Virus record (IMG/VR): IMGVR_UViG_3300044813_000005
Location: 1 to 62,585 of that record
Origin: a virus
Length of the DNA: 62,585 nt
Direction: 5' to 3' (one strand)
The position numbers and the translations under genes are program-made. Shown one piece after another: positions 4,129 through 42,899 of this stretch (position 1 is the first letter of the stretch; every line of letters starts with the position of its first letter). Below the pieces are notes generated by a model. The model was not told the origin of the DNA and did no database searches. It saw only the letters and a program-made list of their open reading frames with translations.

Positions 4129-4380
4129 TCAGACGTCCGGGTTGGTCGCCTCGCGGCGCGCGGCCACCGGGTCGGCCTGCGTCTCCGGGACGGGCTTGCC
4201 GGCTGCGGCACCCTTCACCGTGTAGTTCTCGTTCGGGGTCTGGTCGACCTCGGTGCCGCGGTAGCCCTTCTGCGTCTCCTCGTCGACGACTTCCTGCACC
4301 TCGTCGAGCGCCTTGTCCACGTCCTTGTCTTCGGCCTTCTGGCGATCCCCGGTGGGGCCGGCCTTCTTCGCGTCAACCAT
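4129..4380 (-). CDS. Small acidic late-operon protein
   Basis: 83 aa from ATG at 4380, with AAGGAG 6 nt before it. Very hydrophilic, with many Lys, Glu and Asp and a predicted helical N-terminal half (KALDEVQEVVDEE). It is a head-region hypothetical protein. Function is unknown. Confidence 0.6.
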   Translation of the reverse strand: MVDAKKAGPTGDRQKAEDKDVDKALDEVQEVVDEETQKGYRGTEVDQTPNENYTVKGAAAGKPVPETQADPVAARREATNPDV

Positions 4381-11110: not shown

Positions 11111-11604
11111 CACACGTCGAACGGGGAGGCACCATCATCGGCCTCCTCAACCTCCGGCAGCTTCCCCCGAGCAGATGGCGACAGCCCAAGCTCGCCGATG
11201 TAGCGCAGCAGCGTCGTCCGGTACTGGCCGGCGATCGTCGTCGCCCCGTTCTTCTGCCAGCCCCGCTCACCCTCCATCAGCAGCCCCTGACGGGACAAGG
11301 TGCGCTCACACTGGTCGATCCGCGCCACACACACGCAGTAGTCATGCAAGGTGCTGGCGTCCACATCGCCCAGCCCGGTCGACCGGCGCAGCACCGGGAC
11401 GATCCGCTGCCACTCCCGCGACGCAATCGCCCGGCAGCGCACAACCTCCGCACCGTCACCGGCGAACGTCTCCGACCAGTCCGGCTCCGACAACCCGTCC
11501 GGCGGGACATGCGCGCCCGCCGACCGCTTCCGCGACGCCGGCCGATGACCCGGATTACCCTCCCGAACCACCTGCAACGGCAGCTTCCGCGCCGCTCTCG
11601 GCAC
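11110..11604 (-). CDS. terS: Terminase small subunit (P27 family)
   Basis: About 164 aa from GTG at 11604; other in-frame GTGs lie at 11610 and 11613. The N-terminus LQVVREGNPGHRPASRK is the P27-family signature, and the helical C-terminus includes QYRTTLLRYIGELGLSPSARGKL. It binds the packaging start site and hands DNA to TerL. Its 5' end overlaps the upstream gene by about 50 bp in another frame. Confidence 0.85.
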   Translation of the reverse strand: MPRAARKLPLQVVREGNPGHRPASRKRSAGAHVPPDGLSEPDWSETFAGDGAEVVRCRAIASREWQRIVPVLRRSTGLGDVDASTLHDYCVCVARIDQCERTLSRQGLLMEGERGWQKNGATTIAGQYRTTLLRYIGELGLSPSARGKLPEVEEADDGASPFDV

Positions 11605-11788
11605 TCCCACCACCGCCCTCCGACCGGGCGCGCTCACGGGCCGCGCGCTTCGTGTACGACACCAGAAACTTCCGGATCTCCTCCGACAGCAGCTCACCAC
11701 GCTCCGCCGCCGAAGACATCGCCTCCGACCACAAAGCGTCCTCAACACGGACCGCGCGGATCGGACGAGGCTTACGAGTAGTAGTCAT
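11555..11788 (-). CDS. Small putative DNA-binding protein upstream of terS
   Basis: 77 aa from ATG at 11788. RPIRAVRVEDALWSEAMSSAAERGELLSEEIRKFLVSYT resembles a ribbon-helix-helix or CopG-type N-terminus, followed by a Gly/Ala/Glu tail. It is first in the late operon. A CGTATTGACG copy of the promoter motif lies just upstream. It could regulate the late operon. Confidence 0.6.
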   Translation of the reverse strand: MTTTRKPRPIRAVRVEDALWSEAMSSAAERGELLSEEIRKFLVSYTKRAARERARSEGGGGSAESGAEAAVAGGSGG

Positions 11789-11806
11789 ACGGCGAGCATG
11801 CCACGC

Positions 11807-11816
11807 CGTCAATACG
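11807..11816 (-). promoter_or_regulatory. Minus-strand copy of the CGTATTGAC motif
   Basis: CGTATTGACG on the minus strand, 19 bp upstream of the first late-operon ATG, matches the core of the five plus-strand promoters P1-P5. A second TTGACA lies 12 bp further upstream. No convincing -10 is seen, so it may act as a protein-binding site instead. Confidence 0.4.
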
Positions 11817-12000
11817 GCTGTCAACACAAAGGTACTTGACACCGTGCCGCGAGGCGACTAACGTTCCAGACGAGGCAGAAGCCCCCACGCGAGCGGCCAC
11901 CTCACCACCCCCGCAACACCAGCCAGGCCGCACAGCCGGCCAGCCACGCGCAAACACCTCGAACCGCGCCCAGCGCGCGCAGACCGTGACCGGTCTCGGG

Positions 12001-12445
12001 CGTGACGCGCGCGCGCGGGTGCGCCCCCAGGTGGGTGTGCGGGTGCGCGCGTGTGTGTGCGTGTGCGCAGGCCCAGGCGCGCGTGTGCGGGCGCGCAGGC
12101 GTGTGCGCAGGTGCAGGTGTGCGTGTGCGCGTAGGCAGGCGCACAGGCGCGCGTAGGTGCAGGTGCGCGGGTGCGTGTGTGTGCGCGTGCGGGCCTGCCG
12201 GCGTGTGTGCGCGTGTGCGTGACTGTGCGTAGGCGCGTGCCTGTGCGTGCCTGCCTGAGCGTGTGTGTGCGCGGCTGAGCTCGTGCGTGCTGGCGTGTGC
12301 GCTGCTGGGTGTGCGTGTGTGCCCGCTTGTGTGTGGCGTGTCTGTGTGTGCGTGTCAGGTGCGGCGCTGGTGTGTGTGCAGCCCCGTGTGCTGGCCGTGG
12401 GCGGGCATGTAGCCGTGGTGCCTGAGCTGCGTGTGCGTCATCTGT
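12001..12445. repeat. GT/GC-rich alternating purine-pyrimidine tract
   Basis: About 445 bp in which the plus strand is almost entirely G, T and C in alternating units such as GTGTGCGTGTGCGC and GTGCGCGCGTGTGTG, with very few A. Such alternating tracts can adopt Z-DNA. There is no coding signature. It is strongly unlike the rest of the genome. Confidence 0.75.
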
Positions 12446-12447
12446 GT

Positions 12448-12479
12448 GCTTGCTGTTGCTAGCGCTTGCTGTTGCTAGC
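12448..12479. repeat. Perfect tandem duplication, 2 x 16 bp
   Basis: GCTTGCTGTTGCTAGC occurs at 12448-12463 and again, with no gap, at 12464-12479. Each unit ends in GCTAGC, a 6-bp palindrome. It sits at the right edge of the GT-rich tract. Confidence 0.8.
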
Positions 12480-12546
12480 ACCCTGCCGGCCGAGCTGCCG
12501 GAGCTGCGCTGTGTGCGTGTCCGGTATGTGGGACGGTCACCCTGTC

Positions 12547-12579
12547 CGTATTGACAGACGTATGCACACGGACTAGTGT
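12547..12579 (+). promoter_or_regulatory. Promoter P1 of the repeated family
   Basis: CGTATTGACA then 17 bp then TAGTGT. The -35 is at 12551-12556 and the -10 at 12574-12579. The direct CGTAT repeat (CGTATTGACAGACGTATG) recurs in P2-P5. It drives the secreted-protein gene at 12631 with about 45 nt of leader. Confidence 0.7.
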
Positions 12580-12630
12580 TCTAGTTACCGGCAGGGCACA
12601 AGCCCAGCCACAAGCACAGAGGAGCTAGAC

Positions 12631-12963
12631 ATGAACAAGCGCACTGCACTCCAGACGGCCGGCGCATTCGTTGCCAGCGTGGCAGCCACGACCGTGCTCA
12701 CCATGCCGGCCGCACACGCTGCGACCCGCAACCCGGACGCTTACTGCCAGTGGAGCATCTTGCAGGGCACGGTCACGGTCCTCGCCACGCGGCCGGGACT
12801 GGACGGGGCGCGGTTCGTGGTGGACACGCGCGACGGCCGCCAGTACGTGTCCTACCTGACCAGTGAAGGCATGGCGAACCTGCCCACTGGCAGCAACGAG
12901 GGACACGGCTACGGCTACGTGCGGCGCGTGGCCGTGGCCGGGCACCGTTGCGGCGTTGCGTGA
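12631..12963 (+). CDS. Small secreted protein
   Basis: 110 aa, with GAGGAG before ATG. A clear Sec signal peptide spans residues 1-30 (MNKRTALQTAGAFVASVAAT... PAAHA|A). The mature part is about 80 aa with two cysteines, which could form a disulfide. It is first of the plus-strand cluster and under P1. A secreted or surface product from a temperate phage could act in superinfection exclusion or host fitness. Nothing in the sequence decides this. Confidence 0.75.
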   Translation: MNKRTALQTAGAFVASVAATTVLTMPAAHAATRNPDAYCQWSILQGTVTVLATRPGLDGARFVVDTRDGRQYVSYLTSEGMANLPTGSNEGHGYGYVRRVAVAGHRCGVA

Positions 12964-13127
12964 TGGCGACGTTTGCCTACGCCGTGACGGTAAGCGCGAA
13001 CACGGCTGCGGAAGCGGAGCGCGTGATGGTGGAGCGCGTCGGGTACTCCGAGGATTACGGGTTTGACTACCTGATCGACTATGCGCGCGCCGACGGTGCG
13101 AATGTGGAGCCCGTCGAGATCGACTAG
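12963..13127 (+). CDS. Small acidic protein
   Basis: 54 aa. Its ATG overlaps the previous stop (TGATG). It begins MATFAYAVTVSANTAAEAERVM and is acidic towards the end. It is followed by a terminator hairpin. Function is unknown. Confidence 0.55.
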   Translation: MATFAYAVTVSANTAAEAERVMVERVGYSEDYGFDYLIDYARADGANVEPVEID

Positions 13128-13140
13128 CAGCCGCAACCTA

Positions 13141-13168
13141 ACGGGCCGTCCCTACGGGGGCGGCCCGT
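13141..13168 (+). terminator. Terminator-like hairpin
   Basis: ACGGGCCG at 13141-13148 pairs with CGGCCCGT at 13161-13168 and is followed by TT. It closes the P1 transcript. Confidence 0.65.
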
Positions 13169-13200
13169 TTGCGTGTCTGCCCCGGCATTCCCGTCACTCC

Positions 13201-13233
13201 CGTATTGACAACCGTATGCACACATGGCACGAT
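13201..13233 (+). promoter_or_regulatory. Promoter P2 of the repeated family
   Basis: CGTATTGACA then 17 bp then CACGAT (-10 at 13228-13233). It shares CGTATTGACAxxCGTATGCACAC with P1. It serves the genes at 13269 and 13352. Confidence 0.65.
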
Positions 13234-13268
13234 GTACATACAGGACGGAGATACGGGAGGCGAGTCAG

Positions 13269-13355
13269 ATGGGCGTAGTGAGCATGGCATCGGGACTGCT
13301 GATAGCGGCGGCCGCTTGGGTGAGCGTGTGGGCTGACAGGCAGGCGCACCGATGA
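13269..13355 (+). CDS. 28-residue membrane peptide
   Basis: MGVVSMASGLLIAAAAWVSV and eight more residues, behind GGGAGG. Its stop overlaps the next start as ATGA. One hydrophobic segment spans residues 3-21. Strong RBS and coupling support translation. Confidence 0.5.
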   Translation: MGVVSMASGLLIAAAAWVSVWADRQAHR

Positions 13356-13915
13356 GCGCCGCAGTGGACTACTTCCGGGCGACAGGCGCAGAGCTGGCGG
13401 CACTTGCCGGGCAAGGTGACAGCGCGGCCGGTGCGGAGATCGCGCGGCGTGCTGCTAAGCGGGCAGCCAAGCGGGGGCAGGCCGTGCAGCCGGCCGGGCC
13501 CGTACCGGCGCCCGTGAAGGTGAAGGCGCCGCGGAAGATGTCCCCGCGGATGGCGGACCTTCACGCCGGATACGTGCTGGCACGGGAGGCGCAGACATTG
13601 CGCGCGGAAGCGGCGTGTGGTGCGAACGCGACGGAGCTCGCGTCCTACTTCGGCACGGATGGCCAGATGGACGCGGTCGAGCAGCGTGTGACGTGGAAGC
13701 AATGGCTACGGGACACGGCGTCTGGTGCGGCCGGTGAGGCTGCGCAGCGTGCGTACTCCGATGGGGTGGCGCTGGGCGTGCGGATGGCGGCCGGCGAGGA
13801 CGTGTCTAACGCGGAGTATGACGCTGCGGAGCTTGCGGCTGGTGGGGATGCGGAGATGTTCGCCGATGGTGTGGCGGCTGGGCTGGGCCGTGCGGCTGAG
13901 TCTGTGGCAGTGTGA
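13352..13915 (+). CDS. Hypothetical protein, Ala-rich
   Basis: 187 aa, coupled to the small membrane peptide. A basic, Ala/Lys-rich N-terminus (RRAAKRAAKRGQ) is followed by a helical, acidic C-terminal domain (GAAGEAAQRAYSDGVALGVRMAAGED). No enzyme motif was seen. It lies under P2. Confidence 0.65.
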   Translation: MSAAVDYFRATGAELAALAGQGDSAAGAEIARRAAKRAAKRGQAVQPAGPVPAPVKVKAPRKMSPRMADLHAGYVLAREAQTLRAEAACGANATELASYFGTDGQMDAVEQRVTWKQWLRDTASGAAGEAAQRAYSDGVALGVRMAAGEDVSNAEYDAAELAAGGDAEMFADGVAAGLGRAAESVAV

Positions 13916-13930
13916 ACAAACCTTGCCGCA

Positions 13931-13964
13931 CGTATTGACAGACGTATGCACGTCGTGGGAGTAT
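13931..13964 (+). promoter_or_regulatory. Promoter P3 of the repeated family
   Basis: CGTATTGACAGACGTATGCA followed by a weak -10 (GGAGTA or GAGTAT at 13958-13964). It serves the gene at 14001, with GAGGAG before that ATG. Confidence 0.6.
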
Positions 13965-14000
13965 GTACCTATCGGCAGGACACACACAGAGGAGAGCGAC

Positions 14001-14348
14001 ATGGCGGAGTACATCGACACCCGGGACCTGCAAGAGGAGCTTGACGCGCTGGTCGCCCGCCGAGATGACGTGCAGCGATCGGAGCCGCTGACCGGCGAGG
14101 ACCAGGAGCGACTGACCGCGCTTGAGGAGTTGGCCGGGAATGTGGGCGACGAGTTCCGCTATGGCGCGACGATGATTCCCGAACGTGACTTCGAGGACTA
14201 CGCGCGCGAGCTGGCGGAAGACATCGGCGCGATCTCCGGTGACGAGAAGTGGCCGGCCACGTGCATCGACTGGAAGCGCGCGACGTGGGAGTTGAGCATG
14301 GATTACTCGATGGTGACGTGGGAGGGCATCGACTACTACGTGAGGTAG
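14001..14348 (+). CDS. Conserved phage hypothetical protein
   Basis: 115 aa, with GAGGAG upstream. An N-terminal helical, acidic part leads to a C-terminal signature DEKWPATCIDWKRATWELSMDYSMVTWEGIDYYVR-type region with conserved aromatic residues. Proteins of this type are common in phages and plasmids, often near anti-restriction genes. Biochemical role is unknown to me. Confidence 0.7.
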   Translation: MAEYIDTRDLQEELDALVARRDDVQRSEPLTGEDQERLTALEELAGNVGDEFRYGATMIPERDFEDYARELAEDIGAISGDEKWPATCIDWKRATWELSMDYSMVTWEGIDYYVR

Positions 14349-14365
14349 CGCAGCTCGCACGGTTT

Positions 14366-14393
14366 CGGCCCGGTCGCTACGGCGGCCGGGCCG
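14366..14393 (+). terminator. Terminator-like hairpin
   Basis: CGGCCCGG at 14366-14373 pairs with CCGGGCCG at 14386-14393 and is followed by TTTCGTC. It closes the P3 transcript. Confidence 0.65.
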
Positions 14394-14436
14394 TTTCGTC
14401 TGTCCGGGCAAAGTTTCTTGTGCCAATCCCCATGTA

Positions 14437-14469
14437 CGTATTGACAGGCGTATGTACATGAGGCAGGAT
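14437..14469 (+). promoter_or_regulatory. Promoter P4, probably giving a leaderless mRNA
   Basis: CGTATTGACA then 17 bp then CAGGAT at 14464-14469. The ATG of the next gene is at 14476, 7 nt after the -10 box, where transcription should begin. No Shine-Dalgarno fits. Confidence 0.65.
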
Positions 14470-14475
14470 TGACCT

Positions 14476-15009
14476 ATGAGCGAGACACGGACCATTCACT
14501 GCGACTGCCCGGTATGTGACGGGGCGGCCGTCCAGGTCACCGGCTCCACGTTGAGCCTTACCCGAGCCATGCGTCACCGCATGGTCACCATCGCACGTCA
14601 AGCGCAGAGGAGCGCAGCATTGAGCACGAACATTGAGACGGTCGGCGCGACCGCCCGCGGGCAGTACGGGGAGCTCGCCCGGATCGTAGAAGTGCTGGAA
14701 TGGACCAGGCTTAGCGCGCAGCACTTGACCAGTCCGGGTGATGTTGTGGTCCGGCTTGAGCAAGTCGGGCTCGGATTCAATCACACGTCATCGTGGGCGA
14801 GTGACCTGACGCCGGCCGAGCCTGGCGACGTCGGCGCGCATCCGGAACCGGACGCTAACGGCTTCACCTGGCACTACGTCCCCGCATCCTGGCGCACGGA
14901 GCCCGCAGTCGGCGAGGACGACGACACGTGCGAGGGATGCACTGCGGGCCCGGGTGAGCCGTGCCGGTGGGGATGCCTGTCGAACGTCGACAACGGGGCG
15001 CAGTCATGA
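14476..15009 (+). CDS. Hypothetical protein with cysteine clusters
   Basis: 177 aa. CDCPVC lies near the N-terminus and CEGCTAGPGEPCRWGC near the C-terminus, suggesting zinc sites. The centre has a helix with RGQYGELARIVEVLEWTRLSAQ. It is probably translated from a leaderless transcript from P4. Its stop overlaps the next ATG. Confidence 0.6.
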   Translation: MSETRTIHCDCPVCDGAAVQVTGSTLSLTRAMRHRMVTIARQAQRSAALSTNIETVGATARGQYGELARIVEVLEWTRLSAQHLTSPGDVVVRLEQVGLGFNHTSSWASDLTPAEPGDVGAHPEPDANGFTWHYVPASWRTEPAVGEDDDTCEGCTAGPGEPCRWGCLSNVDNGAQS

Positions 15010-15221
15010 CGACCGTGACCATGCCCGCGGGCCTGCTGGCCGCGTACAGCCGGTCAGGTGTCCCCACCTACTGCCCCGACTGCTGGGAGCAGATCGACGC
15101 GTACGACGACCACACAGACGGCATCTGGGCGGCGTGCCCATGCTCGGCCGGATACGTCGGCACCAGCCTGACGGTGCTCACCCACTCGGACCACGCGCCG
15201 ACCGCTTGGCAGCTCGCGTGA
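15006..15221 (+). CDS. Small zinc-finger protein
   Basis: 71 aa, coupled by ATGA. CPDC and CPC motifs lie around a short acidic segment. Overlap with the next gene is GTGA. Function is unknown. Confidence 0.6.
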   Translation: MTTVTMPAGLLAAYSRSGVPTYCPDCWEQIDAYDDHTDGIWAACPCSAGYVGTSLTVLTHSDHAPTAWQLA

Positions 15222-15394
15222 CCGCGGGCGCCCGCGTCGATGGGCACACGATCGCTAGGGCCGTACGGCGACCGGGCAGGCATCTCGTACGGGACACGTC
15301 CGGGCAGTGGGCGGCCGTGTGGACAGACGACCAGGGCCGTATTGCCAGGGTAGGACCTTGGCTGGCCGTATTGACATGCGTACCGACAACCTGA
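15218..15394 (+). CDS. Small hypothetical protein
   Basis: 58 aa with a GTG start overlapping the previous stop. It includes HLVRDTSGQWAAVWTDDQGRI, a short beta-like repeat. Promoter P5 lies inside its 3' end, so its coding region and a regulatory site overlap. Confidence 0.5.
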   Translation: MTAGARVDGHTIARAVRRPGRHLVRDTSGQWAAVWTDDQGRIARVGPWLAVLTCVPTT

Positions 15395-15400
15395 GAGGAT
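15367..15400 (+). promoter_or_regulatory. Promoter P5 of the repeated family
   Basis: CGTATTGACA with -35 at 15371-15376, and GAGGAT at 15395-15400. ATG at 15408 lies about where transcription would start, so the mRNA may be leaderless. It overlaps the end of the preceding gene. Confidence 0.55.
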
Positions 15401-15407
15401 GTGCGGC

Positions 15408-15668
15408 ATGGTGATAACGGGAAACGGAAACAGACTGGACACACTGACCGCGGCGCGGGTAGCCGTGCGGCTGTACGCGGACGGACGCACGTTCACGGAG
15501 ACGCTACTACTCGATCCGGACGACCGGACGGGTGGCGTGTGGGTGACGTATCGGGCCGACATCGGCGACCACGGCGACACATACCAGGTAGTGCTAACGG
15601 AAGCGCCGATGCCCACGGGCAAGGCGCACGAGCTCGCCGGCCTTGTGCTGGCGGGAAAGGTTGCATGA
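15408..15668 (+). CDS. Small hypothetical protein
   Basis: 86 aa from ATG at 15408; an ATG at 15399 is also possible. Beta-rich text LYADGRTFTETLLLDPDDRTGGVWVTYRADIG. Its stop overlaps the next start by ATGA. Function is unknown. Confidence 0.6.
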   Translation: MVITGNGNRLDTLTAARVAVRLYADGRTFTETLLLDPDDRTGGVWVTYRADIGDHGDTYQVVLTEAPMPTGKAHELAGLVLAGKVA

Positions 15669-15892
15669 TGCGACACCTAACGCTGACCGGCCTGTACGCC
15701 GGCCGCACGGTGTGCGGTCAGTCGAAGGATGGCGCGCAGGCTGTGCATGCGGTGTGGGCGCCGGAGTGGATGCTGACCGACGCTGACACGTGCGCGGCGT
15801 GCCGGCATGCGTGGGAGTGCGAGTCGGACCCATGCGAGACGTGCGACACGATCACGATTGCGCCCGTGTTCCCAGCGATGGTGACCGCGTGA
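15665..15892 (+). CDS. Small cysteine-rich protein
   Basis: 75 aa, coupled on both sides. CAAC...CESDPCETC gives a probable zinc finger. It starts MMRHLTLTGLYAGRTVCGQ, like other small zinc-binding phage proteins. Function is unknown. Confidence 0.6.
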   Translation: MMRHLTLTGLYAGRTVCGQSKDGAQAVHAVWAPEWMLTDADTCAACRHAWECESDPCETCDTITIAPVFPAMVTA

Positions 15893-16167
15893 CCGCCCCG
15901 GCGTATGCCCGGCCGGCCGCCGTGCCGGCTGTGATGCCACGGTGGGACTGGCGCGACGCCGAGCTGTACGGCCGGGAATGGCTGGCCGGGCTGCGGCGGC
16001 GCCGGCCGACCGTGGCGCTGGCGTTGACGACGGCGGCGGCCGTGCTGCTGGCCGTGGTGCTGCTGCTGGCCCTGTCCGCGGCGGTCGGGCTGTGGCCGTT
16101 GTGGGCGGTACGGCGGTCGCTACGGGCACGGAGAGCGCCGGCCGTAGGGACGCCCGCTGAGGAGTAA
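15889..16167 (+). CDS. Small membrane protein
   Basis: 92 aa with a GTG start overlapping the previous stop. A single long hydrophobic segment at about residues 47-75 (ALALTTAAAVLLAVVLLLAL) is flanked by Arg-rich ends, so it is probably a bitopic membrane protein. Last gene of the plus cluster. Confidence 0.65.
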   Translation: MTAPAYARPAAVPAVMPRWDWRDAELYGREWLAGLRRRRPTVALALTTAAAVLLAVVLLLALSAAVGLWPLWAVRRSLRARRAPAVGTPAEE

Positions 16168-16173
16168 CGCGCG

Positions 16174-16707
16174 CTAGGCGAATGCTGCTAGGTACTCGCG
16201 CGCGACCACGATCCAGGCATCCTCTTCCAGCAGTCCTAGCCGTGTGTTGCACCGCGTGCAGAGCGCACCGCGCACCGTGCCCGCGGCGTGGCTGTGGTCC
16301 AGCTCGGTCGCCTGCCTGTCACGGCACAGCCAGCACGCACCGGCGTACCGCCCGCGTAGCGCATCCCACTGCGCCTGCGTCACGCCGTAACGCTTCATCC
16401 GATGCTTCGCCGCACGGTCCGGCGCGCACGTCTGGCACCAGCGCATCGCGCTATGGAACGGCGCGTAGCTCGCGCCACAGCCCTCGCAGACCTTTTCCGG
16501 CCCGAACGGCTCTCGCGGCCCGACCCGCGGTACGGCCATCCGGCCACGGCGGGCCATCTCTGCCGGCGTAGCGCGTTCCCTCGCGGCTCTGACCAGGCAG
16601 TCGTTGGAGCACATCGTCCGGCTCGCGTTGCGGTAGTGCTTGACGAACACCTTGCCGCATGGCCCGTAGGCGCAGTCGGCGTAGCGGACGGTGCAGTACG
16701 GTTTCAT
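16174..16707 (-). CDS. Recombination endonuclease VII-like protein
   Basis: 177 aa from ATG at 16707; GTG at 16737 is possible. N-terminal cysteine pairs form treble-clef-like knuckles. The C-terminal domain has RYGVTQAQWDALRGRYAGAC, C-x2-C, ATELDHSHAAG and GALCTRCNTRLGLLEE, matching the Endo VII/HNH fold with the DH pair. Endo VII enzymes resolve branched DNA before packaging. It could also be a free-standing homing endonuclease. Confidence 0.8.
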   Translation of the reverse strand: MKPYCTVRYADCAYGPCGKVFVKHYRNASRTMCSNDCLVRAARERATPAEMARRGRMAVPRVGPREPFGPEKVCEGCGASYAPFHSAMRWCQTCAPDRAAKHRMKRYGVTQAQWDALRGRYAGACWLCRDRQATELDHSHAAGTVRGALCTRCNTRLGLLEEDAWIVVAREYLAAFA

Positions 16708-16737
16708 CCTGTCGGCCTGCTCTCTCAGGTTGACCAC

Positions 16738-16983
16738 GCCCCCGGACGGTTGCCGCCGTCGCGGGGGTTCCTTGCTCTGATTCTACTACTCGCGCAGTCC
16801 CTTTATATATTTTCCGGCCCTATAGCCCCGGCCGTCCCTTCATGCGTCATGTACCTGGCAGGTCATGTAGCGCCGGGCGTCATGTAGCAGAGGCTGGCAC
16901 GGAGGGGCAGGCACCTCATGTGGGGGACGCTGCCACGGAGGCAGGCCGGACGTTTGGGATTGCTTTCCTAATCCGGCGGGCTT
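16738..16983. other. Intergenic region with AT-rich island and direct repeats
   Basis: No gene is seen. It holds CTTTATATATTTT at 16801-16813, the most AT-rich stretch noticed, and three GTCATGTA repeats. It lies between two endonuclease genes of the same strand. Confidence 0.55.
16846..16886 (+). repeat. Iteron-like GTCATGTA repeats
   Basis: GTCATGTA at 16846-16853, 16862-16869 and 16879-16886, spaced 16 and 17 bp, with a degenerate CTCATGTG near 16916. Regular spacing beside an AT-rich island is the look of a replication origin or a cooperative operator. Confidence 0.5.
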
Positions 16984-25627: not shown

Positions 25628-25812
25628 GGCGTGGTGCGGGCGGGGGCAGCGGCTTCCCCTTCCGCCACCCCCGCCCGGTCTGTGGGCTGCTGCCACCACA
25701 CGCCGGCCCCGTGCGAGGCGGGTGCGGGCCGTCCGGTGAGGAGCCGGGCGAGGTCGGTGGGGATGCGGACGACGCCTGCGGAGCGGAGCCACCGCCGGTC
25801 GGCGCGGGTCAT
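25624..25812 (-). CDS. Small basic hypothetical protein
   Basis: 62 aa, starting MTRADRRWLRSAGVVRIPTD, with a low-complexity Ala/Pro C-terminus. Coupled between the DpdA-like gene and its neighbour. Function is unknown. Confidence 0.5.
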   Translation of the reverse strand: MTRADRRWLRSAGVVRIPTDLARLLTGRPAPASHGAGVWWQQPTDRAGVAEGEAAAPARTTP

Positions 25813-26585
25813 GCTGCCCCCTCGAAGATGGATGGCTGGTGGTATTCGGTGCCTTGGAGTGCCCGGTCACGCCAGCGGGTGGCATAGCGCAGGCAGTTGG
25901 CGCAGGACTTGTGGCCGGTGCAACCGGGGAGGGTGCGGTCGCGGCGGGCGCGGAATGACCAGCTCATGCTGTCGGCGCTGGTGAGGTGGGCGGCGTAGGT
26001 GCGGAGGCCGTCGCCTTTGCAGCCGAATCCGTGTAGGCGGATGCCGAGGCTGGCTACGAGCTCGAGGATGTGGGCGACTTCGCCGGTGTTCTGCCTGCGA
26101 CATACGGATCCGACGCCGACGGTCGGTTCGACGGTGAGGTCGATCCCGGCGGCGGCGTACTGGTCGGCGTGGTTGAGGTAGTCGGCGGCGGCGAACCCTT
26201 GGAGGACGGGGATCCACGGCAGGTCGGGGGCGGCGTGGCGTAGCTCCAGTAGGTTGTCGGTGGTGCGCTGCTGGTGGTCGGCGACGGTGAGGCCGGTCTT
26301 GTCGAGGACGAACGGTTCGCACATCCAGTCCTGTGGGGCGGCCCAGTCGAGCTTGCCGATCTGGTCGGCGTACCGGCGGGCGGCGGCGACGTAGGGCCGC
26401 GCACCCTCGGCGTAGGCGTCGGCGCCGTGGAGGTTGAGTTCGGTGAATCCGCCGGAGTCGAGGACCCACGGGTGCAGGGCGCGGGGGAACGTCTTCCGAC
26501 CGGCGAGGCGGCGGTGGCTGACCATCAGCGGGTACGGGGCGACGTCCAGCCAGGACGGCATGTGGGTGCCGAGGTAGAACATCAT
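25809..26585 (-). CDS. dpdA: DpdA-like DNA deazaguanine transglycosylase
   Basis: 258 aa. It has the tRNA-guanine transglycosylase-type core: LGTHMPSWL at the start, WVLDSGGFTEL (DSGGF motif), PQDWMCEPFVL, VLQGF, VGVGSVCRRQ, RLHGFGCKG and SADSMSWSFRARR. C-terminal cysteines (GCTGHKSCANC) could bind zinc. Phage DpdA enzymes insert 7-deazaguanine bases into DNA and protect it from restriction. No preQ0 synthesis genes are seen; a YhhQ transporter gene is encoded nearby. Host tRNA modification is an alternative. Confidence 0.8.
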   Translation of the reverse strand: MMFYLGTHMPSWLDVAPYPLMVSHRRLAGRKTFPRALHPWVLDSGGFTELNLHGADAYAEGARPYVAAARRYADQIGKLDWAAPQDWMCEPFVLDKTGLTVADHQQRTTDNLLELRHAAPDLPWIPVLQGFAAADYLNHADQYAAAGIDLTVEPTVGVGSVCRRQNTGEVAHILELVASLGIRLHGFGCKGDGLRTYAAHLTSADSMSWSFRARRDRTLPGCTGHKSCANCLRYATRWRDRALQGTEYHQPSIFEGAA

Positions 26586-35198: not shown

Positions 35199-35692
35199 GC
35201 CGCTGCCCTCGTCCGTGGGTGCGGTTTGTTGCAGGTGGCGCACATGAACAGCGGCGGCCGCCCGCCGGCCTGGAACGGATGGTCGGCCGGAAGTTTGCCG
35301 ACCCGCCATTCCAGTTTCCTGTCCCCGTTCCGCATGAGGAACTTCTCAAGGCCGAGCTGCTTCAGTTCATCCGCGGAGTGACGAGCCAGTGGCCGCTGGT
35401 CGGGCGTCGCCTGCCATGACCGCCACGTCTTGACCGCACGGCGTACGTGCGGGGCGGCGAGGCCGACCCCGGCGAATGCAGCGCCGCCGATGACGAGGAG
35501 CGGGGCGTGGACCCACGCCGTCGCCAGCACAGCAGCGCCGACGCCGAGGCGCAGCGGCCGGTTCTTGGCGTAGAACCGCTTCGCCGACCGCTTGACCGTG
35601 GCCTTGCCGCGCTGCCCTTTGACGCCCTTGCGGTAGGCGGTGGCACCACTCCGGGTCTTGTACTGGCCTCCACGGCGCTGGTAAGTGGTCAT
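35195..35692 (-). CDS. Basic membrane protein
   Basis: 165 aa from ATG at 35692. A very basic N-terminus (YRKGVKGQRGKATVKRSAKRF) precedes two hydrophobic segments (LGVGAAVLATAWVHAPLLVIGG). The C-terminus has CATCNKPH. Its ATG overlaps the FtsK-like stop. Similar small membrane proteins accompany TraB/FtsK genes in integrative elements. Confidence 0.65.
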   Translation of the reverse strand: MTTYQRRGGQYKTRSGATAYRKGVKGQRGKATVKRSAKRFYAKNRPLRLGVGAAVLATAWVHAPLLVIGGAAFAGVGLAAPHVRRAVKTWRSWQATPDQRPLARHSADELKQLGLEKFLMRNGDRKLEWRVGKLPADHPFQAGGRPPLFMCATCNKPHPRTRAAA

Positions 35693-37530
35693 GAGGCTTC
35701 GCCTTCTTTCCATACGGGGGCTGTTTGAGCCTGTCCAACGTCTATGCGGCGGGGGGTTTGAGCGTGCCGCGCGGGAACGGCGCGTAGGGGTTGAGCCTTC
35801 GGCGCGGGGGGTGCGAGGCGATATGCGGAGCCGTTGCGGGTCCCATAGCGCTCCACGGAGCCAGCCATCTTCGCGAGGCGGAGGCCGAGCGTCGTCGGGT
35901 TGGGCGGCCGGAGGTCCGGGTCCAGCAGGTCGTGGATGCCCTTTGCCGTCAGCGGGCCGTGGATTGTGAGGATGTCGACGACGGCGCTCTCAAGGTCGAC
36001 GACCTTCGGCTTGCCGAGAGCGCGGAGTGCCCTGGCCCGGTCGCAGATCGCCCGCCAGTCGGCGTCGTCGATGTAGTCGAACCGGAACGCCACCTCCACG
36101 CCGGGGGTCATCATGATCGCCTCCCCGCGCTGCGCCGGCAGGGGGACGGTCGGCGTCTCCCCGAGGATCAGCTTGGCGTTGGCGGCGTTCCGCATGGCGA
36201 GGGCGAACCGGGTGTCGATGAGGTCCCGGACACCGCCGGGGAGGTCTTCGACGGACGGTCGCTGGGTGGAGAACAGCATGACCAGCTCGACGGCCCGACA
36301 GAGGCGGACGAGGCGTTCCATCGTCGCGTCGATCCGGGTGAGGGTCTTCTTGTCGGCGCCGGACCGGACGTCCTGGAACTCTTCCAGGATCAGCAGGACG
36401 CCGGGGTCTTTGACGGCCGGGTCGGTGGAGTTGCGGGTCCGGACGAGGTTCAGTACTTCGTCGAGCATGTCGGCCAGTTCGGCGGCGGCGTCTTCGGAGG
36501 TGCCGCGGACGAACGTGTCGCACAGGTCCCACAGGTCGCGGTAGTCCCGGGCCGACCCTTTGCCGTCGAGGCCGAAGATGCGGGTGCGGGGGTCGAGGAT
36601 GAACTGGGCGATGACGAGACGGGCGGCCCTGGTCTTGCCGCGCCCGGGCATGCCGGCGATGAGGATGTTGTGTTCGTCCGTCTCCACGTCGACGGGGGTG
36701 CCGCGCAGCATCTCCGCGCCGACGCGGAACGGCTGGTCCCATTCGGTGCGTTCGGCGGTGGCGAGGTGGGAGCGGACGGGCGGCAGGTTCGGGCGGGGCA
36801 GGCCGACGAACATGCGGACCATCGACGCGGGTGTGTTCGGCGGGTGGCTGATCTCCACGAGCGCGGGGTCGAGGCGGAACGCCCCGGCGAGTTTGGCCCG
36901 GTTGGCGATGAACGTGTCGCAGGGGACGGCGTGCCGTCCGTCGGCGATCAGCTCGAAGTCGATACGGGTCCCGGCAGCCGTGTGAACGGGCTGGCCGTGG
37001 CGGCGGGTCTTGGGCTTGCGGCCGTTCGCTGCGGTTTCTTTGACGATGCCGGCGAAGATGCAGGCGGGGATGAGGCTGCGTTCTTTCCAGAACGTCAGCT
37101 GGGGTGCGGGGCGGGTGAGGATCGCGGCGGGGACGCAGACGGCGAGCAGTAGGAACGCGATCAGCCGGGGCGGGACGACGAGGAGCGCCAGCAGCCCGAC
37201 AACCGTGGCGGCGGCGGTGCCGGCGAGGACCCGTCGGCCGGTGAGCCAGCGGGAGTCGGGCGGGTAGAAGGACCGTTCGGCGCGGGTCCGCTCGAGCCCG
37301 GCCCACAGCCCGGCACCCGCGAGGGCGACGTAGGCGAGGGCGACGATGGTGGTGGCGGGGATGACGGCGACGGCGATGAGGACCCCGGCCGCGCCGAAGC
37401 ACAGGCGCCGCCCCCGTTTGGAGACGGCGCCGGTGGCGGTGCGGGCGAGGATGAGTAGGTCTTTCTGGCGGGCTGCGGTGCTGTGGCCGACTGCCAGCCG
37501 GTACAGGGCGCTGCCGGTGGCGGAGGTCAC
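35689..37530 (-). CDS. FtsK/TraB-like DNA translocase
   Basis: About 613 aa from GTG at 37530. Two pairs of N-terminal membrane segments. Walker A is AGMPGRGKTRAA, Walker B LLILEEFQDV, and a sensor region FSTQRPS follows. The C-terminal 70 residues look like a winged helix (LTAKGIHDLLDPDLRPPNPTTLGLRLAKM). This is the layout of actinobacterial TraB and FtsK, which move double-stranded DNA between cells or compartments. It is unusual in a phage genome. Confidence 0.83.
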   Translation of the reverse strand: MTSATGSALYRLAVGHSTAARQKDLLILARTATGAVSKRGRRLCFGAAGVLIAVAVIPATTIVALAYVALAGAGLWAGLERTRAERSFYPPDSRWLTGRRVLAGTAAATVVGLLALLVVPPRLIAFLLLAVCVPAAILTRPAPQLTFWKERSLIPACIFAGIVKETAANGRKPKTRRHGQPVHTAAGTRIDFELIADGRHAVPCDTFIANRAKLAGAFRLDPALVEISHPPNTPASMVRMFVGLPRPNLPPVRSHLATAERTEWDQPFRVGAEMLRGTPVDVETDEHNILIAGMPGRGKTRAARLVIAQFILDPRTRIFGLDGKGSARDYRDLWDLCDTFVRGTSEDAAAELADMLDEVLNLVRTRNSTDPAVKDPGVLLILEEFQDVRSGADKKTLTRIDATMERLVRLCRAVELVMLFSTQRPSVEDLPGGVRDLIDTRFALAMRNAANAKLILGETPTVPLPAQRGEAIMMTPGVEVAFRFDYIDDADWRAICDRARALRALGKPKVVDLESAVVDILTIHGPLTAKGIHDLLDPDLRPPNPTTLGLRLAKMAGSVERYGTRNGSAYRLAPPAPKAQPLRAVPARHAQTPRRIDVGQAQTAPVWKEGEAS

Positions 37531-37904: not shown

Positions 37905-38156
37905 ATGACGCCGGAACAGGTGGCGAACATCAGTGATCCCGAGCGTCGCGCTGTCGCAGCGCAGGCTGCCATCAAAGCGGGCAACGACCGGCTCGACCGA
38001 CTTCGGAAGCTCCGCGACGACGCCATCGGCGACCTGCGGGTGGCCGGCTGGACTCAGACGCAGATCGTCGATCTGGTGGGCGTGTCGTCAGCCAGGGTCG
38101 CGGCGATCGACCGGGCGCAGGGGATCGTCACCGAGCGGACCCGCCGGAGGCAGTAG
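37905..38156 (+). CDS. Small HTH protein
   Basis: 83 aa. A helical first half (RLDRLRKLRDDAIGDLRVAG) leads to WTQTQIVDLVGVSSARVAAIDRAQG, a sigma-4 or Cro-like helix-turn-helix. It diverges from the FtsK operon across the inverted repeats and may bind them. Confidence 0.7.
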   Translation: MTPEQVANISDPERRAVAAQAAIKAGNDRLDRLRKLRDDAIGDLRVAGWTQTQIVDLVGVSSARVAAIDRAQGIVTERTRRRQ

Positions 38157-42377: not shown

Positions 42378-42899
42378 TCACCGGCTCCACCCCTTCTCGA
42401 TGATGAGTACTTCCCACGCGGCCGGCGTCACGGTCCGCCATTCGGGCGGTGGCGCAGGCGCGTCGAGCTCGGCCTGCCGGTAAGCCCAGGCGGCGAGCGA
42501 CGAGCAGACAACATGGCCGGGGATGACCGGGCCGGACTTGAGCAGGTCGGGCATGCCGATCGCCATCGCGGCGTCGGCGGCTATCGCCGACCAGTCGTAT
42601 TGCGCCCCGAGCATCGCGCGGACGGCTGCGACGATGGTGGCCCGCTGTCCTTCCGCTTTGGGCTGGCCGGCGTTGTTGACGGTCCACGGGTCGGCCAAGT
42701 ACCGGCGTAGGTCGACCCAGCCGACCCCGCCTGGTTTGCCTTCTAGACCCCACGGCACGCCATCGGTGTCGTGGGTGTACACGGCGACGTGGTTATGGAG
42801 CCCAGGCAGGTCACGGATGCAGGCGCCGAGCCGGATCACGCGCCCGGCCACGCCGGTCTTCGAGCGGGTCAGGAGCAGGTCGCCGGGGGCGAGAGTCAT
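42378..42899 (-). CDS. Permuted NlpC/P60 (YiiX-like) hydrolase
   Basis: 173 aa from ATG at 42899. LAPGDLLLTRS, LHNHVAVYTHD (His first) and HVVCSSLAAWAY (Cys later) give the permuted papain-like order. It would cut amide or ester bonds in the cell wall or in host products. It is coupled to the SNase gene. Confidence 0.72.
   Translation of the reverse strand: MTLAPGDLLLTRSKTGVAGRVIRLGACIRDLPGLHNHVAVYTHDTDGVPWGLEGKPGGVGWVDLRRYLADPWTVNNAGQPKAEGQRATIVAAVRAMLGAQYDWSAIAADAAMAIGMPDLLKSGPVIPGHVVCSSLAAWAYRQAELDAPAPPPEWRTVTPAAWEVLIIEKGWSR

Follow-up and report, generated by a model that had tools for sequence, protein, structure and literature searches.

What does a near-identical, promoter-like motif do when it recurs in front of a series of small genes in one phage genome? 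We examined this question in the IMG/VR virus record IMGVR_UViG_3300044813_000005, analyzed over its whole length of 62,585 bp (referred to below as the window), where the motif CGTATTGACAnnCGTA is found in five exact plus-strand copies at 12.5-15.4 kb and in one minus-strand copy with two mismatches. We consider it likely that the motif is the operator of an autoregulated phage repressor of the ribbon-helix-helix (RHH) type (Arc/RelB-type), encoded by the gene P0001, and that a usually single operator has spread here to five small-gene promoters. The record, from an uncultured actinobacterial phage, has a G+C content of about 69%. Streptomyces phage Rowa has the nearest large terminase subunit (56% identity), and the record also has matches to integrase, RecT-like, RuvC-like, primase, and lysis genes.

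A scan of the window with CGTATTGACANNCGTA, allowing up to two mismatches, gave six matches: exact plus-strand copies at 12547, 13201, 13931, 14437, and 15367, and a minus-strand match at 11828-11813 with two mismatches. In 100 dinucleotide shuffles the mean number of matches was 0.06, and six were reached in none. The five near-identical copies with 17- or 18-bp spacers that had been described from the sequence alone are therefore all present, and each lies between open reading frames (ORFs), ahead of small plus-strand ORFs. When a position weight matrix (PWM) was run over the entire record, the six sites scored 30-39 bits, and the runner-up site in the window scored 14.7.

The sequence-only reading had also noted identity extending beyond the -35 hexamer. 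This identity is real, but its extent had to be revised from 16 bp to a 24-bp unit, namely a tandem pair of 12-bp boxes with the core GTATNNAC-N4-GTATNNAC (consensus from the six aligned sites: box 1, CGTATTGACAnn; box 2, CGTATksACAnn). Among the five plus-strand sites, mean pairwise identity is 0.88 over bases 1-12, 0.71 over bases 13-24, and 0.29-0.34 outside, where 0.29 is the chance level given the base composition. Since the sequence flanking the 24 bp is at background identity from the first bases on, we rejected larger duplicated cassettes, of which the sites would be remnants, as their origin. The 12-bp direct repeat is evident from the autocorrelation over 17 sites (those of the window and of related contigs), which reaches 0.69 at a shift of 12 and stays at or below 0.35 at other shifts from 3 to 19. 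SARP-like direct repeats, which have an 11-bp pitch, were also considered; the boxes of the window repeat every 12 bp. With its core GTATNNAC, each box comes close to a palindrome, a form suited to a symmetric dimer. The six sites and the candidate regulator gene are located as follows.

11555 to 11788, minus strand: P0001, RHH protein of 77 amino acids and proposed repressor, identified by a phrog_6506 match
11805 to 11828, minus strand: site 6, TGTGTTGACAGC followed by CGTATTGACGGC, on the P0001 promoter region; -35 at 11824-11819, candidate -10 CATGCT at 11800-11795
12547 to 12570, plus strand: site 1; -35 at 12551, candidate -10 TAGTGT at 12574
13201 to 13224, plus strand: site 2; -35 at 13205, candidate -10 CACGAT at 13228
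13931 to 13954, plus strand: site 3; -35 at 13935, candidate -10 GAGTAT at 13959
14437 to 14460, plus strand: site 4; -35 at 14441, candidate -10 CAGGAT at 14464; ATG at 14476, 39 bp from the box start
15367 to 15390, plus strand: site 5; -35 at 15371, candidate -10 GAGGAT at 15395; ATG at 15408, 41 bp from the box start

The sixth, minus-strand core had been raised as a possible link between the small genes and the late operon. Its position agrees with this view, as it falls on the promoter region of P0001, the likely regulator gene. P0001 opens the minus-strand terminase/portal operon; behind it on the same strand come the terminase genes, first that of the small subunit (PF05119) and then that of the large one, and the portal gene. 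P0001 matches phrog_6506, annotated 'Arc-like repressor', with an E-value of 1.1e-7 (7.1e-9 in a six-frame search), and profile A1, made of P0001 relatives, matches the omega repressor of pSM19035 (PDB 2bnw, E 8e-4). The AF2 monomer model (pLDDT 74.6) has helices at residues 17-30 and 34-58 and no strand called. Foldseek comparison of this model returned mostly RHH chains (MatP, Arc, CopG, VapB), with no E-value below 0.35; because these values are not significant, the fold assignment rests on the sequence profiles. Searches with P0001 itself found no relative in IMG/VR and, among named phages, MrSmee alone, which lacks the boxes.

We approached the co-occurrence of the motif and the RHH gene from both sides. 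Selection by CGTATTGACANNCGTANNNACA alone picked nine IMG/VR stretches, seven of which encode an RHH relative (L071, L072, L074, L075, L076, L077, and L078). These relatives were detected with a profile built from two sequences, P0001 and the RHH of L009 (E <= 2e-6), and with profile A1 (E <= 1e-23), the latter itself built with such RHH matches included, and some of the seven stretches are close sisters (L072/L078). As for the other two, L070 is a shorter stretch that repeats part of the L076 phage, and the motif in L073 apparently lies in coding DNA, as judged by eye. Two control patterns without full boxes, TTGACANNCGTATTGACA and CGYRTTGACANNCGYRTNNACA, gave an RHH gene in 0 of 37 and 0 of 21 new stretches, respectively. 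Among 54 loci selected by TerL, an RHH gene was present in one, L036, which also has a drifted tandem copy, CGCATAGACAAACGCATAGACA; another, L037, reached 17.5 bits in the PWM scan and has no RHH of the L036 kind. A gene comparison across 13 motif/RHH loci, a set partly chosen for RHH, matched P0001 in 11 (E <= 1e-3) and every other window gene in at most four. The exact motif also occurs five times in GTDB genomes, in unrelated bacteria, four times within longer repeats of the unit and with no RHH, and a chromosomal host regulon was rejected. No credible named phage was found by blastn of the L072 promoter, and the search with the L077 RHH likewise returned no named phage.

From the side of the RHH gene, an alignment search in IMG/VR gave nine loci, four of them new (L142, L143, L144, and L148); altogether, 13 viral contigs, mostly fragments, were checked. 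In L142 a box pair lies 40 bp ahead of the ATG of that contig's own RHH gene, and L143 has a pair with one mismatch. The L036 RHH matched 42 records of named phages, and we examined 13 of the 43 RHH-bearing named-phage records (12 from this search and MrSmee). These 13 phages were picked by RHH similarity alone. Ten of them have an exact pair, GTATNNACN4GTATNNAC, immediately ahead of the RHH operon, comprising six of six Cheoctovirus, three of three Fishburnevirus, and Gordonia phage GMA1. Whole-record scans of Ramsey (58.6 kb), GMA1 (41.2 kb), and Majeke (47.6 kb) detected the pair at one place each, and those of Philonius and MrSmee detected no box pair. A control set of 53 loci selected by TerL, 719.7 kb in all, yielded no exact pair and one pair with one mismatch. 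Related viral records contain between zero and two pair matches each at one mismatch, compared with six sites in the window. Conservation of the motif in relatives, a check that the sequence-only reading had itself proposed, was thus borne out. A side observation concerns gene annotation in two of the named phages. The annotated starts of the first gene of the RHH operon in Ramsey (gp72; L149 4277-4310) and in Ovechkin (L153 792-807) fall in or beside the box pair. A leaderless start would agree better with the in-frame ATG codons at 4310 and 807, respectively, each located 29 bp after the 20-bp core begins.

Several observations weigh against an RHH repressor acting through these boxes. Two of the new IMG/VR loci have the RHH gene without a box pair, namely L144, whose contig ends 449 bp away from this gene, and L148, whose RHH is 37% identical. 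The same is true of both Charlievirus phages (Philonius and Aggie) and of MrSmee, and the positive named phages represent three independent lineages rather than ten. A scan with CGTATTGACANNCGTATG gave seven stretches with an RHH gene only in L009, which shares with the window a layout of RHH, HNH, TerS-like, and TerL-like genes (the HNH and TerS labels were assigned by eye). In the same set, L010, L011, and L013 have a promoter-like motif copy without a detected RHH, and L007/L008 and L012 have neither. On the side of the regulator, Foldseek of the P0001 model gave no match at E <= 0.001, and P0001 heads a late-gene operon, when a gene in the early cluster would fit an immediate-early role more simply. 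Finally, the -10 hexamers are weak and match TATAAT at just three of six positions. The motif copies of the three similar contigs, CGTATTGACATTCGTATGTCGATAGACTAACATTCC, are all on the minus strand before ORFs (L010 12461, L011 9166, and L013 8617).

These three contigs also bear on a simpler explanation, in which the motif is no more than the promoter consensus of a sigma factor, either the host's own or a sigma-like one from the phage, and has nothing to do with P0001. TTGACA and the 17-18 bp spacing do fit a housekeeping promoter. A tandem 12-bp repeat, however, is not a promoter feature, the box pair occurs nowhere else in the window, and the co-occurrence with RHH genes holds in both directions. 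Furthermore, the pairs that precede the RHH operons of Ramsey and Majeke contain no TTGACA and lie nearer to the candidate -10, so that the boxes are separate from the promoter elements, which favors an operator. We therefore regard a plain promoter consensus as very unlikely. A shared regulator site, as previously suggested, describes the motif well, since it overlaps the -35 element and extends past it.

The -35 TTGACA is located inside box 1 and is of consensus type in all six sites; spacers to the best -10 at sites 1-5 are 17, 17, 18, 17, and 18 bp. The -10 elements assigned in the window are candidates, and a strict sigma-70 scan of 11500-16900 returned no promoter. At 13 of the 17 sites a reading frame begins with an ATG that is 39-41 bp away from the start of the box and only a few bases past the candidate -10, and this spacing suggests leaderless messages at the box-pair promoters. 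In the window it is found at sites 4, 5, and 6 (the P0001 ATG is 40 bp from the start of the site 6 box), and the leaders are longer at sites 1-3. The genes of sites 4 and 6 are probably leaderless and that of site 5 possibly so; the latter has a second, in-frame ATG at 15399. The genes behind the plus-strand sites are listed below.

12631 to 12963, plus strand: ORF of 110 amino acids behind site 1, from translation, with a Sec signal peptide-like N-terminus by eye
13269 to 13355, plus strand: hydrophobic 28-codon ORF behind site 2, read from the sequence
13352 to 13915, plus strand: ORF of 187 amino acids following the 28-codon ORF behind site 2, from translation
14001 to 14348, plus strand: probable ArdA-like anti-restriction protein of 115 amino acids behind site 3, from tblastn and PHROG
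14366 to 14393, plus strand: intrinsic-terminator-like hairpin between the ArdA-like ORF and site 4, from a terminator scan
14476 to 15009, plus strand: ORF of 177 amino acids behind site 4, from translation
15408 to 15668, plus strand: ORF of 86 amino acids behind site 5, followed by small ORFs at 15665-15892 and 15889-16167

The gene behind site 3 is a probable ArdA-like anti-restriction gene. Its product is 45.5% identical by tblastn to gp164 of Mycobacterium prophi86-1, annotated 'ArdA-like antirestriction protein', and 40.4% identical to a Citromicrobium phage protein that carries an antirestriction annotation; it also matches phrog_25535 (5.9e-18) and phrog_2059 (1e-4), and its match to PF07275 (E 0.0046) is below the cut-off. 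Three loci with relatives of this gene (L161-L163) showed no box pair at one mismatch. The ORFs of 110 and 177 amino acids had no match in PHROG and Pfam searches. Two terminator-like hairpins were found, compared with 1.6 expected in shuffles.

We infer that P0001 binds the boxes, that it represses rather than activates, and that the controlled genes are immediate-early. Each 12-bp box would hold one RHH dimer, so that two dimers would sit side by side on each operator. Because box 1 contains the -35 TTGACA, bound P0001 would cover the -35 and the spacer and exclude RNA polymerase. It would thereby shut its own promoter at site 6 together with the five promoters of the plus-strand small-gene cluster, including that of the ArdA-like gene. 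At entry, when there would be no repressor, all six promoters would fire, and the build-up of P0001 would then close them together. Such a burst and shut-off would suit the ArdA-like and signal-peptide-like genes, the timing being our guess.

A different outcome of the same binding would be activation, alone or along with repression, with the cluster switched on after P0001 is expressed. This possibility has a precedent in AmrZ, an RHH protein that is both an activator and a repressor (PMC3325190), and the weak -10 hexamers could need help. Yet a dimer bound over the -35 and the spacer would block polymerase, all six sites already have a consensus TTGACA, and the RHH gene itself carries the same site. 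Activation is accordingly an unlikely outcome in our view, and so is the phage-specific activation system that had been raised from the sequence.

The proposed repression by P0001 has a measured precedent in E. coli RelB. There, two 12-bp (pseudo)palindromic half-sites directly adjoin each other, and two RHH dimers bind them on the same face of the DNA in autoregulation, as we propose here; the half-sites tolerate no spacing, two inserted nucleotides causing a 45-fold derepression (PMC2812701). RelB differs in its half-site sequence, in its RelE co-repressor, and in the single operator described for it (PMC2812701). The similar box pitch could mean that P0001 serves as antitoxin in a toxin-antitoxin system of type II, with autoregulatory box pairs used elsewhere as a side effect, and the RHH antitoxins MazE6 and TacA are among the fold matches. 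However, the next minus-strand ORF matches the terminase small subunit (PF05119) and not a toxin, although no dedicated toxin library was searched, and six operators at six gene starts are not a matter of chance. We give an antitoxin role hardly any credence.

The omega protein of pSM19035 is the closest solved relative of P0001 by profile, and it resembles the proposed repressor in being an RHH protein that binds tandem repeats over several promoters of one replicon; it also acts in partition (PMC9499535). The sites might accordingly be parS-like centromeres for an RHH ParB that partitions an extrachromosomal prophage. Omega, though, binds 7-10 repeats of 7 bp per site, works with ParA, and activates ParA fully only with four or more heptads in a row (PMC9499535), whereas the window has two boxes per site at a 12-bp pitch. 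ParA (PF13614) was not found in the window and was found in 14 of 14 control genomes, and the window has an integrase match. Partition is thus extremely improbable, and we rejected it on the lack of ParA in the window.

The sequence-only reading had compared the sites to the stoperators of phage L5, another repressor system with many near-identical sites, some of them over promoters. L5-type repressors are helix-turn-helix (HTH) proteins predicted to bind as monomers to more than 20 asymmetric 13-mers, and stoperators are partly intergenic, away from promoters, where they stop elongation (PMC9283540). In contrast, the window has just six sites, all of them tandem near-palindromic pairs at gene starts, and the candidate regulator beside them is an RHH protein, although no search by name was made for an L5-type repressor. 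The comparison was dropped on site number, position, and symmetry.

Among phage proteins, P22 Arc is an RHH repressor, and Arc structures are among the listed fold matches of P0001. Arc combines autoregulation with early-gene shut-off and uses a single operator, compared with the multi-promoter set in the window. The nearest systems are the phrog_6506 RHH proteins of Cheoctovirus and Fishburnevirus mycobacteriophages and the GMA1 RHH, in which an RHH gene is likewise accompanied by the tandem GTATNNAC-N4-GTATNNAC right before its operon. In GMA1 the resemblance to the window goes further, since box 1 contains TTGAC and the candidate -10 is closely followed by an ATG. Ramsey, GMA1, and Majeke have one site per scanned genome as opposed to six, and the RHH gene of the named phages belongs to a small operon, while that of the window stands ahead of the terminase genes. 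Autoregulators and multi-promoter regulators of the RHH type are both familiar; the novelty appears to lie in the operator code used by this family of actinophages and in its expansion from a site number that is usually one to six. No account of this operator was found in the literature searched (open-licence PMC papers), including by the motif letters.

Other features of the window were observed along the way. Between the divergent promoters lies an ORF-poor, G/T-rich tract (11951-12450) with strong purine-pyrimidine alternation, which reaches 0.79 in 300-bp segments while the mean over the window is 0.54 (sd 0.035), and with a TG+GT dinucleotide fraction of 0.36 compared with 0.13; it could be a Z-DNA former or a packaging (cos/pac) region beside the terminase genes. 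A queuine tRNA-ribosyltransferase-like gene is encoded at 25809-26585 on the minus strand (phrog_1279, E 1.2e-93). It is possibly of the DpdA type, which modifies phage DNA, and it would then be a second anti-restriction measure beside the ArdA-like gene. An enoyl-CoA hydratase/carnitine racemase-like match, unusual in a phage, is located at 42378-42899 on the minus strand (phrog_1128, E 7e-13), and an FtsK/SpoIIIE-like ATPase at 35689-37530 on the same strand (phrog_1358, 8.5e-22; PF01580, 6.2e-6). A plus-strand ORF at 37920-38156 has weak HTH_31/KorA-like matches (E 0.0023 and 0.019, below cut-offs), and its product is a candidate immunity repressor separate from P0001.

Arc-like RHH repressors are annotated in many actinobacterial phages, and an operator, GTATNNAC-N4-GTATNNAC, can now be proposed for them. 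The window offers a simple, directly testable case of a regulon built from one autoregulatory site, and it marks out likely early genes, one of them ArdA-like. A tentative extension, which we would sooner doubt than assume, is that this phage turned a single-gene autoregulator into a master timer, in which the first gene of the packaging operon closes an entry burst of counter-defence. If so, the entry set would be partly leaderless and separately transcribed and would include an anti-restriction protein and a probably secreted protein, and the GTATNNAC-N4-GTATNNAC code would make regulons of this kind predictable in uncultured phages by their sequence alone.

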